A stretch of DNA of 44,506 nt from the NCBI GenBank assembly GCA_945876205.1, contig CAMCNL010000003.1, forward strand, positions 1 through 44,506, given 5' to 3'. The translations under genes and the position numbers were made by a program. Numbering within the stretch: the first letter of the stretch is position 1; every line of letters begins with the position of its first letter. The stretch is from Candidatus Sulfopaludibacter sp. SbA3. GTDB taxonomy: Bacteria > Acidobacteriota > Vicinamibacteria > Vicinamibacterales > UBA2999. Below, one piece after another: positions 39,405-44,506 of the stretch. The notes beneath the pieces were generated by a model. It did not search any database and was not told the DNA's origin. It saw nothing but the letters and a program-made list of their open reading frames with translations.

Positions 39405-40133
39405 TCAATAGCTCCAGTTTGTCTGTGCGAGCGGTTCGGAGTTCAATTCGTCGCGACGCTGCCGCCACAGCGGGAGGTGCGTGTCCATCAGGCGCGTAAA
39501 GCGATCGTTGTGGCGCCGCTCGATCAGGTGAACGAGCTCGTGTACAACCAGGTACTCGAGGCACCGCGCGGGCTTCTTCGCAAGTTCCAGATTCAGCCAG
39601 ATTCGACGGGCATCCACGCTGCACGCGCCCCATTTGGTCTTCATTTTCCTGATACGCCAGTCGGCGGCATAAACCCCTATCGCCGGCTCCCACTTTGCCA
39701 AAAGCGGCGGGACCAACTCGCAGAGACGGTCACGGTACCAACGCTGCAACACCCGATCGCGGGTACTTGCAGCCGACCCGGGTCGAGTCCATAGCTCGAG
39801 GGTCGCTCGACCGCGCAACACGACCCGGCTTGGCCCACGATGCTCGACTACGCTCAGGCGATACGTTCGCCCCAGAAAGTGGTGGGTTTCCCCGCTGACC
39901 AGCTCCCGCCGCGACTGGCGCGCCTGGTCGGCGAATTTGGCGCGCTGGCGCTTGATCCATCCAAGCTTGCGCACGACGGCGAGGCGCACCGCATGGTCCG
40001 AGACCGCCAGCGGCGCGGCCACGCGAACGCGACCATTCGGCGGGTAGACGCCGAGATGCAGGTTCTTGATTCCCTTGCGAACGATCTGAACCTGCAGGCC
40101 GCCAACGACGATCCGGCGGTGCTCAGTATTCAT
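39405..40133 (-). CDS. YgjP-type (M48-like) zinc metallopeptidase
   Basis: 242 residues. The zinc site is HELVH (198-202) with a third His at 208 in ERRHNDRF, the pattern of the YgjP/DUF45 metallopeptidases. A short region WGACSVDARRIWLNLELAK is the family mark upstream of the metal site. It has no signal peptide. The ATG overlaps the 3' end of hsdR by 11 bases, so it is translated together with it. Such genes are often seen next to type I restriction genes, where a role in control of the restriction complex is suspected but not shown. Confidence 0.9.
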   Translation of the reverse strand: MNTEHRRIVVGGLQVQIVRKGIKNLHLGVYPPNGRVRVAAPLAVSDHAVRLAVVRKLGWIKRQRAKFADQARQSRRELVSGETHHFLGRTYRLSVVEHRGPSRVVLRGRATLELWTRPGSAASTRDRVLQRWYRDRLCELVPPLLAKWEPAIGVYAADWRIRKMKTKWGACSVDARRIWLNLELAKKPARCLEYLVVHELVHLIERRHNDRFTRLMDTHLPLWRQRRDELNSEPLAQTNWSY

Positions 40134-43100
40134 GTTGGTTCTGAACCAGGTTTAGAACCTGGTCCACCAGTTCCTCGAGCTTCGCCTCCGCGACTCGGTG
40201 CTCGCGCGTAACCGTCGTGGCAGTCGATCCTGACAACATCGCCATGTCGCTGAGGAGTGGCTCTCGGATGGCATTCCTCACCCTCTTCACCTTGAAAGAG
40301 TTGTTGCGCCAATCGTCCTGACGGCTGTCTCGAACCGCGGCGTCCACGGCCAACGCGAGGGCCTCGTGCTTCCCCAGGTTGTCATACAGTGCCCGCCTGG
40401 CGGGAGTATCAAGCGCTGATGGATAAGCGGCGGCCGCTGGCCCGCTCTTCGCCTGCCTTGTCAGCTCGACGATCTTGGCCAGGTAGACTGCATAGTCGAG
40501 CGCTTCCTGTTTGCGCTGGGCGATCAGAGCGTCGAGCAGCAGCGACATCCTCTCGTAGTACTTCGGGTTGATGGGCGACTCGTCGATGATCAGCCTGCGG
40601 ACGTTGTTCTCGATGGTTTCCGCCACGGCGCCCTGGCTCCTGCGGATGCCGCCTGGCATCGCGTTCACGGCGTCGACGCCGCGCTCGACGATGAGTTGGA
40701 CGAGCGATAGATCGTCGAACGCCGACACCTTCTCGCTGGCCTCGGCCTGGATGTACGTGTCGATCAGGTGCCGCATCGCCGGCTCGTGCCGCTTGAGATC
40801 GATGGCGTCGCCGCTGTGCAGCTTTACCTCGTTGCGCAAGTTCTCATAGAACGCGACGTCCTTCTTGATCGCTGCTGCCGCCGCCGGGGTGTAGCCTGCT
40901 TCGGCCATCTCGTTGGCCAGGTCGGCGTAGGCGCGGACGAGCGCGGCGGTCAGGGTATAGAGCGACAGCCGCTGCTGCTCGTTGGCCTTGAGTTGCGAGG
41001 CATTGCCGTGGTCTTTTGAGGAGAAGTACCGGAAGTAGGCCTGCTGATCCTTCGGCGGCTCGACCAGCTCGCACAGCGCACGCACCGTCTCGAGGGCTTC
41101 CTCCAATCGCGCGCGCGCCTTACCGAGGCGGTCTTCGAGTAGCCCCGCCACGTCTTCCTGGTCGTAGCCGTCGAACGCACCAGACGTGTAGTCGTGCACG
41201 GCGCCTTCAAGGCTGCGGAACAAGTCCTTGTAGTCGACGATGTAGCCGTACTCCTTGTCGTCGCCGTCCAGCCGGTTCACACGGCAAATGGCCTGGAACA
41301 GGCCGTGGTCGCGCATCTGTTTGTCGATGTAAAGAACGGTGGCGGGAGGCGCGTCGAAACCGGTGAGCAGCTTGTCCACGACGATGAGCAGCTTGAGCTG
41401 TCCGGGCTCTTTGATGAATCGCTTCTTCGCCGCTGTCTCGAACTCCTCCACACGCTTGACGGCGTCTTCGGGGGCCTGGTTGAACCAATCGGCCAGCATC
41501 TGCCGGTAGGTGTTGTACTTCTCGATGTTGTCGGTGTCACCGTCGCCGCTTGCCTCGCCCTTGATATCGGCCGTCGATGGTGTGTAGGACGTGACGATGG
41601 CGCATTTGCCTTTGAGGTTGGTCTTGTCGAACAGATCGTAGAATTTGCACGCCTCGTAAATGCTGCCAGCGACCAGCAGCGCGTTGCCGTGTCCGCTGCT
41701 GAGGCGATCGCGCGTGGCCATATCCATGAGGATGTCGGCGACGATCTGGCCGAGTCGCGACTGGCTGGACAGCACCTTCTGCATGGTGCCCCAACGCTGC
41801 TTGAGTTGAGCCTTCGCAAGATTGGTGAGCCCCTTGGTGCTGGCCTCGAACCACTGGTCGATCTTCGCCTGCGAGGTGATGCGCTGGTCGATGTCGCGCG
41901 CTTCGTAGCGCAGGTCGAGCACGACCTTGTCTTTCACCGCTTCATCGAACTTGTACGTATGGATGTAGCCGCCGAAGATCTCGATGCTCCGCTTCTTGTC
42001 CGCCTTGAGGAGCGGCGTGCCCGTGAAGCCGATGAACACCGCGTTCGGCACAATCGTCTTCATCGCCTTGTGCAGCTCACCCGACTGCGTCCGATGGCAT
42101 TCGTCCACGAAGACGAAGAGGTTGCCCTTGGCCGAAAAGCCCACGGGCAGCGCCTTCTTGACTTCCTCGATATAACCCGGAATATCGCCCACTTCCTCGC
42201 CGTCTTCCCTGCCTCCGAACTTGTGGACCAGCGAACACATCAGCCAGGGCGTCGTCGCGTTCAGTTTCGCGATCAGGTCCGCACCGCTCTGCGTGCGGTA
42301 GATCTCCTCATTGACTCCGAAGAAGACCTTCTCGATCTGCTCATCGAGTTCGGTGCGGTCGGTGATGAGCAGGACGCGGGCGTTCTTCACGTGCTCGCGA
42401 ATCCACTTGGTCAGCCAGACCATCACCAGGCTCTTGCCGCTGCCCTGGGTATGCCAGATGATTCCGCCCTCGCGGCGCTTGACGTGTTCCTGCGCGGCGC
42501 GGACGCCAAAGTACTGGTTGTGCCGGCAGAGCTTCTTGACGCCAGCGTCAAAGACGATGAAGTCGTGGACCAGCTCGAGGAACCGCGCCTTGCCGCACAT
42601 CTGAGTCAGGGCCCGATCCAGCGCGCTCTCGATTGAGCTCTCTTCCTTCCACGTCAGGTAGTACTTCTCGGGCGTATCGATGGTGGCGTAGCGCAGCCCC
42701 TCCGTGTCGTTGCCCGCCATCAACCATTGCAGGGTCGAGAAGAAAGGCTGAATGAACTCCTTCTTCTGGTTGTCGAGGTTCTGACGAATGCCCTCAGCGA
42801 CTGAGACCGTCGAACGCTTCAATTCGAGGATGCCGAGCGCGATGCCGTTGACGTAGAGCACGACGTCCGGGCGTTTGCCGTGGGCCCTGGGATCGGCGGC
42901 CGCGACGGTGACTTCCTCGGCGATGGCGAAATGATTTCTCTCCGGATGCTCCCAGTCGATAAGCCAGACATCGACCGTGTTGTCGCCGACGCCCGGCTTC
43001 ACTTTCACGGCGTAGCGCAGCAGGCCGTAGACCTCGCGGTTGCGGTCGTAGAGGCTCCTGCTCGTGTCGCCCGCCGCCTTGTTGAGGATATGGAGCGCCC

Positions 43101-43284
43101 GGGTGATGAGCGCCTCGTCGTAGCCCTGCTGGTCGCGGAGAAACGGCCGCAACAAGTCTTCCTCGACGTTGCGGTTGCCGGCGCGGTCGGTCCAATCGCC
43201 GAGGTAGGCGTAGCCAAGCGTGTCGCGAAACAGCTTCACGACGCGCTGCTGCGTCCTCCTCTCGATCTGGCCAACCGTGTCCAT
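40123..43284 (-). CDS. hsdR: HsdR, type I restriction enzyme endonuclease/translocase
   Basis: Motor and nuclease subunit of a type I restriction-modification enzyme, 1053 residues. The PD-(D/E)xK nuclease is near the N-terminus: Asp140 in KRPDVVLYVNG and ELK at 154-156 (GILELKRS). The SF2 helicase follows: Walker A GSGKS (281-285), DECH (394-397), FTGTPL, and LLTGFDAPPATVLYIDK with QAICRVNR. The C-terminal third is helical and contacts HsdM. The frame is intact. Start ATG at 43284, three bases after the toxin stop, so it is expressed with the toxin-antitoxin pair. No hsdM is present in the window. Confidence 0.97.
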   Translation of the reverse strand: MDTVGQIERRTQQRVVKLFRDTLGYAYLGDWTDRAGNRNVEEDLLRPFLRDQQGYDEALITRALHILNKAAGDTSRSLYDRNREVYGLLRYAVKVKPGVGDNTVDVWLIDWEHPERNHFAIAEEVTVAAADPRAHGKRPDVVLYVNGIALGILELKRSTVSVAEGIRQNLDNQKKEFIQPFFSTLQWLMAGNDTEGLRYATIDTPEKYYLTWKEESSIESALDRALTQMCGKARFLELVHDFIVFDAGVKKLCRHNQYFGVRAAQEHVKRREGGIIWHTQGSGKSLVMVWLTKWIREHVKNARVLLITDRTELDEQIEKVFFGVNEEIYRTQSGADLIAKLNATTPWLMCSLVHKFGGREDGEEVGDIPGYIEEVKKALPVGFSAKGNLFVFVDECHRTQSGELHKAMKTIVPNAVFIGFTGTPLLKADKKRSIEIFGGYIHTYKFDEAVKDKVVLDLRYEARDIDQRITSQAKIDQWFEASTKGLTNLAKAQLKQRWGTMQKVLSSQSRLGQIVADILMDMATRDRLSSGHGNALLVAGSIYEACKFYDLFDKTNLKGKCAIVTSYTPSTADIKGEASGDGDTDNIEKYNTYRQMLADWFNQAPEDAVKRVEEFETAAKKRFIKEPGQLKLLIVVDKLLTGFDAPPATVLYIDKQMRDHGLFQAICRVNRLDGDDKEYGYIVDYKDLFRSLEGAVHDYTSGAFDGYDQEDVAGLLEDRLGKARARLEEALETVRALCELVEPPKDQQAYFRYFSSKDHGNASQLKANEQQRLSLYTLTAALVRAYADLANEMAEAGYTPAAAAAIKKDVAFYENLRNEVKLHSGDAIDLKRHEPAMRHLIDTYIQAEASEKVSAFDDLSLVQLIVERGVDAVNAMPGGIRRSQGAVAETIENNVRRLIIDESPINPKYYERMSLLLDALIAQRKQEALDYAVYLAKIVELTRQAKSGPAAAAYPSALDTPARRALYDNLGKHEALALAVDAAVRDSRQDDWRNNSFKVKRVRNAIREPLLSDMAMLSGSTATTVTREHRVAEAKLEELVDQVLNLVQNQHEY

Positions 43285-43287
43285 GCG

Positions 43288-43638
43288 CTACGAAAAGAAC
43301 AGGCGGAGTGTGTCGAGAACGCGTTCTACCTTCTCGTTCTTGAGAACCGCGACTCTTCTGATCACGAGCGTGGAGTGGATCGTGAACAATTTGTTCGGCT
43401 TGACGAGAGAGGTCTTCGGCAGCGTTCCCGAAGAGAAGTCACGCGATGTCAAGACCAGCGCCTCCGTGGTGTCGGGGACCTGGGAGGTGATCGCGGCAAC
43501 CACGAGATCCTGCTGCTGGGCGTTGAAACTGTCGGGTGAAATGACGAGGGCGGGCCGTCTCTTGGAGGACGTGAGATCGGTAAAAGGAAACGGGACGAGA
43601 ACGATGTCTCCCCGCTTATAGGGTGTCGTAGACGGCAT
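43288..43638 (-). CDS. PemK/MazF family toxin
   Basis: 116 residues. It has the fold mark of MazF: YKRGDIVLVPFPFTDLTSSKRRPALVISPDSFN, with the conserved RGDIVLVPFPFTD and RRPALVIS, and SLVKPNKLFTIHSTLV in the second half. MazF proteins cut mRNA or tRNA at short sites and stop growth when the antitoxin is lost. Start at 43638 lies inside the antitoxin gene (23-base overlap), the usual toxin-after-antitoxin order. It is located between hsdS and hsdR. Confidence 0.9.
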   Translation of the reverse strand: MPSTTPYKRGDIVLVPFPFTDLTSSKRRPALVISPDSFNAQQQDLVVAAITSQVPDTTEALVLTSRDFSSGTLPKTSLVKPNKLFTIHSTLVIRRVAVLKNEKVERVLDTLRLFFS

Positions 43639-43816
43639 CCTCCTCGTTGTCCCAGAAGTCGAAGCTCTTTTCAGCGGCCGTCAGCCAGCCGAGCGTCTCG
43701 CGGAGTTCGCTGAGTTCGTCCTGCGAGAACACCGTGTAGACCTTGCCTGGCGTGGCCCCCTTGACCGTGTCGAGGGGCTTGAACACCCCGTCCTCGTATG
43801 CCGCCCTGATGCTCAT
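43616..43816 (-). CDS. Antitoxin, DUF104/AF2212-like
   Basis: 66 residues. The N-terminus reads IRAAYEDGVFKPLDTVKGATPGKVYTV, the pattern of the AF2212-like antitoxin family (IxAxYEdGvfkPl). The acidic C-terminus (FDFWDNEEDAVYDTL) would be the toxin-binding segment; similar FWDN.ED.VYD ends are known to me from antitoxins paired with MazF-like proteins. Start ATG at 43814-43816. A TATACT hexamer (minus strand, about 43835) could be its -10 box, but no good -35 is seen. It may repress its own transcription. Confidence 0.82.
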   Translation of the reverse strand: MSIRAAYEDGVFKPLDTVKGATPGKVYTVFSQDELSELRETLGWLTAAEKSFDFWDNEEDAVYDTL

Positions 43817-43859: not shown

Positions 43860-44372
43860 CTAACGGCTTGAGCCCGCTCTTACCAGCCGAGTCTTCCCGG
43901 TCAGCAGTTCCTGCATCATGCCCTGCTTGAGGGCACGGGTCTTGTCGCAGCGCTGCTCAAGTGCGGCGATCTCCGCGTCCATGTCGGAGAGCACCGTAGC
44001 TATGGCAGTCTGTTCGGGAAGGGGTGGTAGCAGCAACTGCAACTGCGCGAGGTTTCTGGCGCTGATGTGAACGACGGCATCGCCTTGACCCATCCTGGCT
44101 TTCTGCGTGGAAACCGATGGGTGGTTCAGTAGATACCCGAGAAACAGCGAATCCTGGTCGGACGGGCTCAGCATCACGATGTCACCACCCGCATAGGCTT
44201 CCATCTCGCCCAAGAACGCGACACATTTTCCAATCTCTTCGGCCGTTTCGCCAGATCCCGCAAAGAGCAAATCCCCCTTCCCCAGTCGTTGGCTCTGCTC
44301 AGCGATCTCCGCCGGGATGAAGGAGTGGAATTCTCTAATGTAATCGTTGTGGCGAGTGGGAGATGTCCCAGT
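43860..44372 (-). pseudogene. hsdS: HsdS, type I specificity subunit (C-terminal remnant)
   Basis: The frame from about 44372 to the stop at 43860 codes the end of an HsdS protein: part of a target-recognition domain (FHSFIPAEIAEQSQRLGKGDLLFAGSGET.EEIGKCVAFLGEMEAYAGGDIVML) and the conserved central/C-terminal helical region (LPPLPEQTAIATVLSDMDAEIAALEQRCDKTRALKQGMMQELLTGKTRLV). About 170 residues remain of the roughly 400 expected. Upstream the frame continues into Arg/Ser/Cys-rich sequence that matches no HsdS and overlaps the mobile-element end. If the first target-recognition domain is indeed missing, the restriction enzyme would lack a complete specificity subunit. Alternatively, a rearranged or half-HsdS gene is present. 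Confidence 0.7.
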
Positions 44373-44392
44373 AGCTGTTGAAAATTGAAAGC

Positions 44393-44466
44393 GGCGGCTC
44401 CTCACTGCTCGTGATACACGAGTGGTGTCTAAGCCCGAGGCGCAAGCCTCACAAGAAGGAGCCGCC
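44393..44466 (+). promoter_or_regulatory. Structured leader hiding the ribosome binding site
   Basis: GGCGGCTCCT (44393-44402) is the exact complement of AGGAGCCGCC (44457-44466), which holds the AGGAG ribosome binding site directly before the ATG at 44467. Between the arms are two hairpins: CTCGTG/CACGAG (44408-44413/44417-44422, 3-base loop) and GAGGC/GCCTC (44437-44441/44446-44450) with the stable GCAA tetraloop. Together they form a three-way junction that would block translation from transcripts that include the whole leader, as known in IS10 and IS200 transposase leaders. Confidence 0.65.
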
Positions 44467-44506
44467 ATGAAGAAGTCTTGCACAGTCGTACGGCCGCACC
44501 AACCCG
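44467..44506 (+). CDS. Start of unknown gene, probably transposase (cut by window edge)
   Basis: Only 13 codons are visible (MKKSCTVVRPHQP). The start is well supported: AAGGAG stands seven bases upstream of ATG. The basic N-terminus and the location beside an interrupted hsdS suggest a transposase gene, but no domain can be recognised from so few residues. Confidence 0.4.
   Translation, partial: MKKSCTVVRPHQP

Follow-up and report, generated by a model that had tools for sequence, protein, structure and literature searches.

Background

Insertion sequences of the IS256 family have terminal inverted repeats, duplicate 8-9 bp of their target and move by a copy-out/paste-in route through circles that carry a junction promoter. 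In two other elements, IS10 (Tn10) and IS50 (Tn5), the transposase gene is protected from external transcription by an inverted repeat near the left end, by means of which read-through mRNA hides the transposase start. This protection was reportedly the subject of Davis, Simons and Kleckner in 1985, Krebs and Reznikoff in 1986 and Mahillon and Chandler in 1998. Secondary structure in the transposase mRNA of IS200 is likewise said, by Ellis et al. in 2015, to suppress transposition.

The window, that is, the whole stretch of 44,506 nucleotides analysed here, ends in an element that resembles IS10 and IS50 in having an inverted repeat near its left end, the 3' arm of which lies over the transposase ribosome site. 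It differs from them in several respects. Native transcription starts have been mapped between the arms in IS10 and IS50, a place in which no sigma-70-type promoter was found in the window; their transposases are unrelated to the IS256-type enzyme; and the 5' arm in the window belongs to a terminal repeat of ~42 bp, with extra hairpins enclosed between the arms. With IS200 the element shares the use of mRNA structure but not the class of transposase. In ISPpu9, an IS110-type element, a stable structure in a 5' UTR of ~245 nt hides the ribosome site and transposase is low, and an antisense RNA, Asr9, has been proposed to open this leader (PMC8450116). The outcome in the window element would be similar, again through a leader that hides the ribosome site, although this leader measures only ~108 nt from the element tip.

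The leader stem described below is a real, conserved RNA stem of an already known kind. Searches of an open-access library brought up no account of such a stem over the ribosome site of an IS256-family element, and its novelty within that family is therefore claimed provisionally. It is suggested here, with a probability of roughly 0.55, that the stem in this IS256-type leader silences translation of the transposase, foremost on read-through transcripts.

Results and discussion

The element and its copies in the genome

The window closes with ~150 bases that form the left end of an IS256-family element (Mutator, PF00872), ~1.43 kb long and inserted in hsdS (Table 1). Its left repeat (IRL) matches the right end read as its reverse complement, both in relatives and in the right-end contigs of the same genome. 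The same 147 bases stand at the ends of four contigs of this genome (left ends: C3, C220, C88 and C165), and matching right ends are present on three others (C110, C191 and C292). Contigs C220 (left) and C110 (right) carry a common 8-bp flank, ACGTCGCA, as would be expected of the target duplication. Left-end and right-end contigs break off inside the element at almost the same base, from which it follows that the assembly collapsed a repeat and that this genome lacks the internal part of the IS.

Table 1. Features at and around the left end of the IS256-family element (positions in the window)
Feature	Position	Strand	Basis or remark
hsdS remnant (type I restriction specificity subunit), broken by the element	43860-44358	-	PF01420 match
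Left terminal inverted repeat (IRL), tip GGAGATGTCCC	44359-44400	+	common to four contigs; matches right-end reverse complement
5' arm of outer stem, GGCGGCTCCT	44393-44402	+	overlaps inner end of IRL; fold, shuffle test, covariation
Hairpin 1, 11 bp, triloop ATA	44403-44427	+	fold; covariation (helix 2)
Hairpin 2, 5 bp, GCAA tetraloop	44437-44450	+	fold; covariation (helix 3)
3' arm of outer stem, AGGAGCCGCC, with Shine-Dalgarno AGGAG, next to start codon	44457-44466	+	fold
Transposase gene start, MKKSCTVVRPHQP..., ends at contig end	44467-44506	+	homologous to L009 transposase

Full copies exist in relatives of the same order. The copy in L009/L027 is 1,431 bp long and encodes a transposase of 424 aa, which in L009 scores 151 bits against PF00872 (cut-off 21). 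Only 13 codons of the transposase lie in the window, but this copy has a leader with 89% identity to the one in L009, and the right-end contigs of the genome encode the matching transposase C terminus. The IRL has at its inner end the 5' arm of the outer stem, which occupies bp 35-44 of the element and contains a motif, GCGGCGGCTC, that is found again in the right inverted repeat. Judged from this arrangement, the three-way-junction leader is part of an IS end and not a free-standing element, and the attribution to an IS in the initial annotation can thus be made specific as the left end of an IS256-family member. Plasmid DNA searched with the leader gave no match, and no viral contig carrying it was confirmed.

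Fold of the transposase leader

Folding recovers the perfect 10-bp stem that had been proposed to pair the AGGAG region with upstream bases. All ten pairs between GGCGGCUCCU and AGGAGCCGCC are Watson-Crick, and the 3' end of the stem directly adjoins the start codon (AUG, 44467-44469). The two hairpins that the stem was said to enclose, one of them with a GCAA loop, are also present in the fold. Hairpin 1 pairs 44403-44413 with 44417-44427, including two G-U pairs, around the triloop AUA, and hairpin 2 reads GAGGC-GCAA-GCCUC. The minimum free energy structure of the leader coincides with the centroid at -48.7 kcal/mol, and none of 200 dinucleotide shuffles folds as well (z -3.4). Pairing between the ribosome-site arm and the upstream side is itself better than expected from shuffles of that side (p = 0.012).

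Sequestration of the ribosome binding site, the central claim of the initial annotation, is upheld by the predicted fold. The stem covers the Shine-Dalgarno sequence, the core of which (GGAG) has a predicted pairing probability of ~0.999 in the full leader. The predicted cost of opening the ribosome site, calculated with just 40 bases of coding sequence included, is 8-13 kcal/mol when the 5' arm is present and 3.5-6 kcal/mol when it is absent.

Conservation within the order

The close family comprises 17 leaders found in the order, most of which share 83-95% identity with that of the window (78% in L016), and in it 97% of structure cells stay paired. Hairpins 1 and 2 both covary, with double changes from C-G to G-C and from A-U to G-C and with several one-sided changes that preserve pairing; this signal is lost when the partner is slid by 1-3 columns. 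In the outer stem six of the ten pairs are invariant and there is no double change. Departures from it mostly break single pairs, and two of these are found in L007, where transposase matches occur in separate pieces only, and in L016, where no transposase frame follows the leader. Pairs that hardly vary cannot prove a helix, and the close-family alignment was accordingly rejected as sole proof of the outer stem. Outside this order no relative of the window element was seen to have the two-hairpin three-way junction.

Equivalent stems in the wider family

Transposases of the wider family are ~36-50% identical and come from Acidobacteriota, Proteobacteria, Actinobacteria, Bacillota and a myxococcal bin. 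Most of the leaders start with a GTCCC...GTTGAA-type repeat and have a stem of different sequence, which likewise reaches the start codon or a position beside it; examples are GGTCTCC/GGAGACC, GTGGCAC/GTGCCAC, GGCGTTGC/GCAACGCC and GGCGGTCCCC/GGGGACCGCC. For each element the 24 bases before the start were paired with the upstream side and compared with dinucleotide shuffles of that side (p <= 0.05). This test was passed by 27 of 30 subgroup elements (the remaining three, L079, L154 and L155, gave p 0.06-0.18) and by 9 of 14 distant IS256-family elements, canonical IS256, ISEf1 and ISBame1 among them, counts that the choice of start codon may slightly favour, as starts were set by Shine-Dalgarno strength or annotation and by eye in L034, L036, L011 and L162. 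Four of the distant elements, ISRm3 (L149), L044, L166 and L038, are clearly without a significant stem. None of 11 control genes in the window passed, and in a second control set 4 of 22 did, three of these being transposase genes missed by the filter. Among named elements with homologous transposases, IS256, ISEf1, ISBame1, ISMyo1, ISOan3 and IS931 have an equivalent stem over the ribosome site at p <= 0.01 and ISNha10 has one at p 0.06; those inspected enclose hairpins unlike those of the window.

Two further observations concern individual relatives. Bradyrhizobium barranii (L079-L136), a culturable host, has more than 50 near-identical copies of a related IS256-type element in one genome and its plasmids, each with 45% protein identity to the query. 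In L144, read as the reverse complement from ~1497, a start resembling the left repeat (88% over 41 bases) is followed by a perfect GGCGGTTCCT/AGGAACCGCC inverted repeat, with no transposase seen beside it. This may be a relative that has decayed or is non-autonomous, its stem being compensated, and it was set aside as a possible degenerate copy.

Covariation of the outer stem

The match between the two arms was compared in 27 subgroup elements by scoring the 12 bases upstream of the start in their best ungapped pairing. The mean score is 10.1/12 with an element's own upstream side and 8.4 with the upstream sides of other elements, and the own-arm score exceeds the cross mean in 25 of the 27. 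Positions -4 and -5 are paired in every element, and single positions show up to four pair types across the subgroup; at position -6, for example, U-A occurs 15 times, G-C four times, C-G three times and A-U twice. Mismatches between the arms are more often C-A or A-C than G-U, a pattern atypical for a tightly constrained helix and perhaps due to selection for A near the start codon. Compensatory changes, the absence of which the initial annotation had named as a refuting outcome, are thus found in the inner hairpins within the close family and in the outer stem across the wider family, there with many double changes; for the outer stem the close family alone has none.

The 5' arm lies in a terminal repeat with a motif that is also at the right end, and the two arms could consequently change together through recognition by one binding protein. 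Arm covariation alone was for this reason rejected as proof of RNA pairing, and a comparison of left and right repeats was used instead. The ribosome-site arm matches the left repeat with a mean of 10.5/14 and the right repeat with 8.4, where chance gives 8.0. It follows the left repeat over the right in 34 elements against 4, a ratio that overstates the number of events because elements sharing a lineage are not independent. Only the left repeat has the bases that face the Shine-Dalgarno sequence, and in ISEf1 and ISBame1 the stem is strong though the right end is without the motif. Together with the covariation of the hairpins, the preference for the left repeat and the left-only bases speak against protein binding as the sole cause, and these sequence comparisons make RNA pairing a better explanation than a third transposase site.

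A proposed filter against read-through transcription

The following model builds on what the computation shows, namely a stem that is conserved through compensatory changes and keeps a fixed position over the ribosome site. A transcript that includes the ribosome site as well as the left inverted repeat would form the stem, which would cover the Shine-Dalgarno sequence and abut the AUG. The enclosed hairpins would shorten the effective loop and should aid formation of the outer stem. With the Shine-Dalgarno sequence hidden in the stem, little transposase would be made. It is quite likely that the stem lowers translation, and a fold kept by matching mutations across several phyla indicates that the element is very probably kept quiet. 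Because the 5' arm is within the IRL, no more than 44 bases from the edge of the element, every transcript from outside carries it, and the stem would thus be a filter against read-through transcription. A native transcript would escape only if it started inside or after the 5' arm, where no sigma-70-type promoter was found in the window, a point against the model. Whether the main use of the stem is indeed against external transcripts, with native ones starting inside or after the 5' arm, is in our estimate evenly balanced. More tentatively, much of the IS256 family, IS256 included, might possess an old translational safety stem with the terminal repeat itself as 5' arm, transposase recognition and mRNA silencing evolving together and unhindered transposase synthesis coming only from transcripts started inside the element.

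If this reading is right, a layer of translational control would be common to a large family of insertion sequences, of which several are carried on resistance plasmids. There would also be a simple and testable explanation for why a copy that has inserted behind a strong promoter does not get out of control. The pairing of the left repeat with the ribosome site would moreover serve as a sequence rule that aids the annotation of start codons and left ends.

Alternative explanations

The stem could also be a constitutive attenuator, with all transposase mRNAs, native ones included, starting upstream of the 5' arm and the stem setting a low basal translation. The window leader, in which no internal promoter can be recognised, is consistent with this. 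A search of 44200-44506 for sigma-70-type promoters was negative, although promoters of this phylum may not fit the pattern; a promoter and terminator scan of the leader found nothing, and at the joined ends of the window family no -35/-10 halves of a junction promoter were recognised by eye. In the circle-junction promoters described for the IS256 family, bp 8-13 of the left end form the -10 (PMC7780238); in ISEf1 and ISBame1 these positions are upstream of the 5' arm. However, in four low-GC relatives, IS256 (L148), ISEf1 (L165), ISBame1 (L168) and L169, a conserved TA[CG]AAT follows closely on the 5' arm, perhaps as the -10 box of a promoter inside the element. This is the place that a read-through filter predicts, as a promoter there would give a transcript without the 5' arm. 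In addition, a weak ribosome site would be a simpler path to low basal expression, and constitutive attenuation is on these grounds considered unlikely, if still worth serious attention. It was also observed that TA[CG]AAT in the low-GC relatives pairs with ATTC or a similar sequence upstream of the ribosome site.

A ligand- or protein-controlled switch had been raised in the initial annotation, and more generally a small RNA, protein, temperature or ligand could open the stem and turn the transposase on. The leader is stable and multi-helical, as such a switch might be, and the antisense RNA thought to open the ISPpu9 leader (PMC8450116) provides a precedent. Against this, the enclosed hairpins vary among relatives in number, sequence and loop while the outer stem is kept, Rfam covariance models gave no match at gathering scores in the window, and by inspection the enclosed region differs between relatives, with no conserved unpaired core for ligand binding outside the close family. 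The suggestion is therefore unsupported and regulated opening appears improbable.

Least probable of all is that the ribosome-site arm is a DNA operator, a third transposase-binding copy of the inner repeat motif that serves autorepression, with RNA pairing incidental: the position of the 5' arm inside the inverted repeat, the motif GCGGCGGCTC at the right end and the co-change expected from recognition by a single protein would suit it, but the chance-level match to the right repeat, the left-only bases facing the Shine-Dalgarno sequence, the strong stems of ISEf1 and ISBame1 and the covarying hairpins do not, and the ends of 26 bp that form the ISCth4 transposase complex (PMC7780238) stop short of an arm at bp 35-44.

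Insertion site

The element lies in a type I restriction-modification locus. The truncated hsdS neighbours hsdR (HSDR_N, SWI2_SNF2; 40123-43284), and this copy, barring a second hsdS, probably no longer provides specificity. Between hsdR and hsdS are two small genes at 43288-43816 on the reverse strand. By eye, the 116-aa product of one (MPSTTPYKRGDIVLVPFPFTDLTSSKRRPALVIS...) looks like a PemK/MazF-type toxin, and a 66-aa product encoded upstream is a possible antitoxin.
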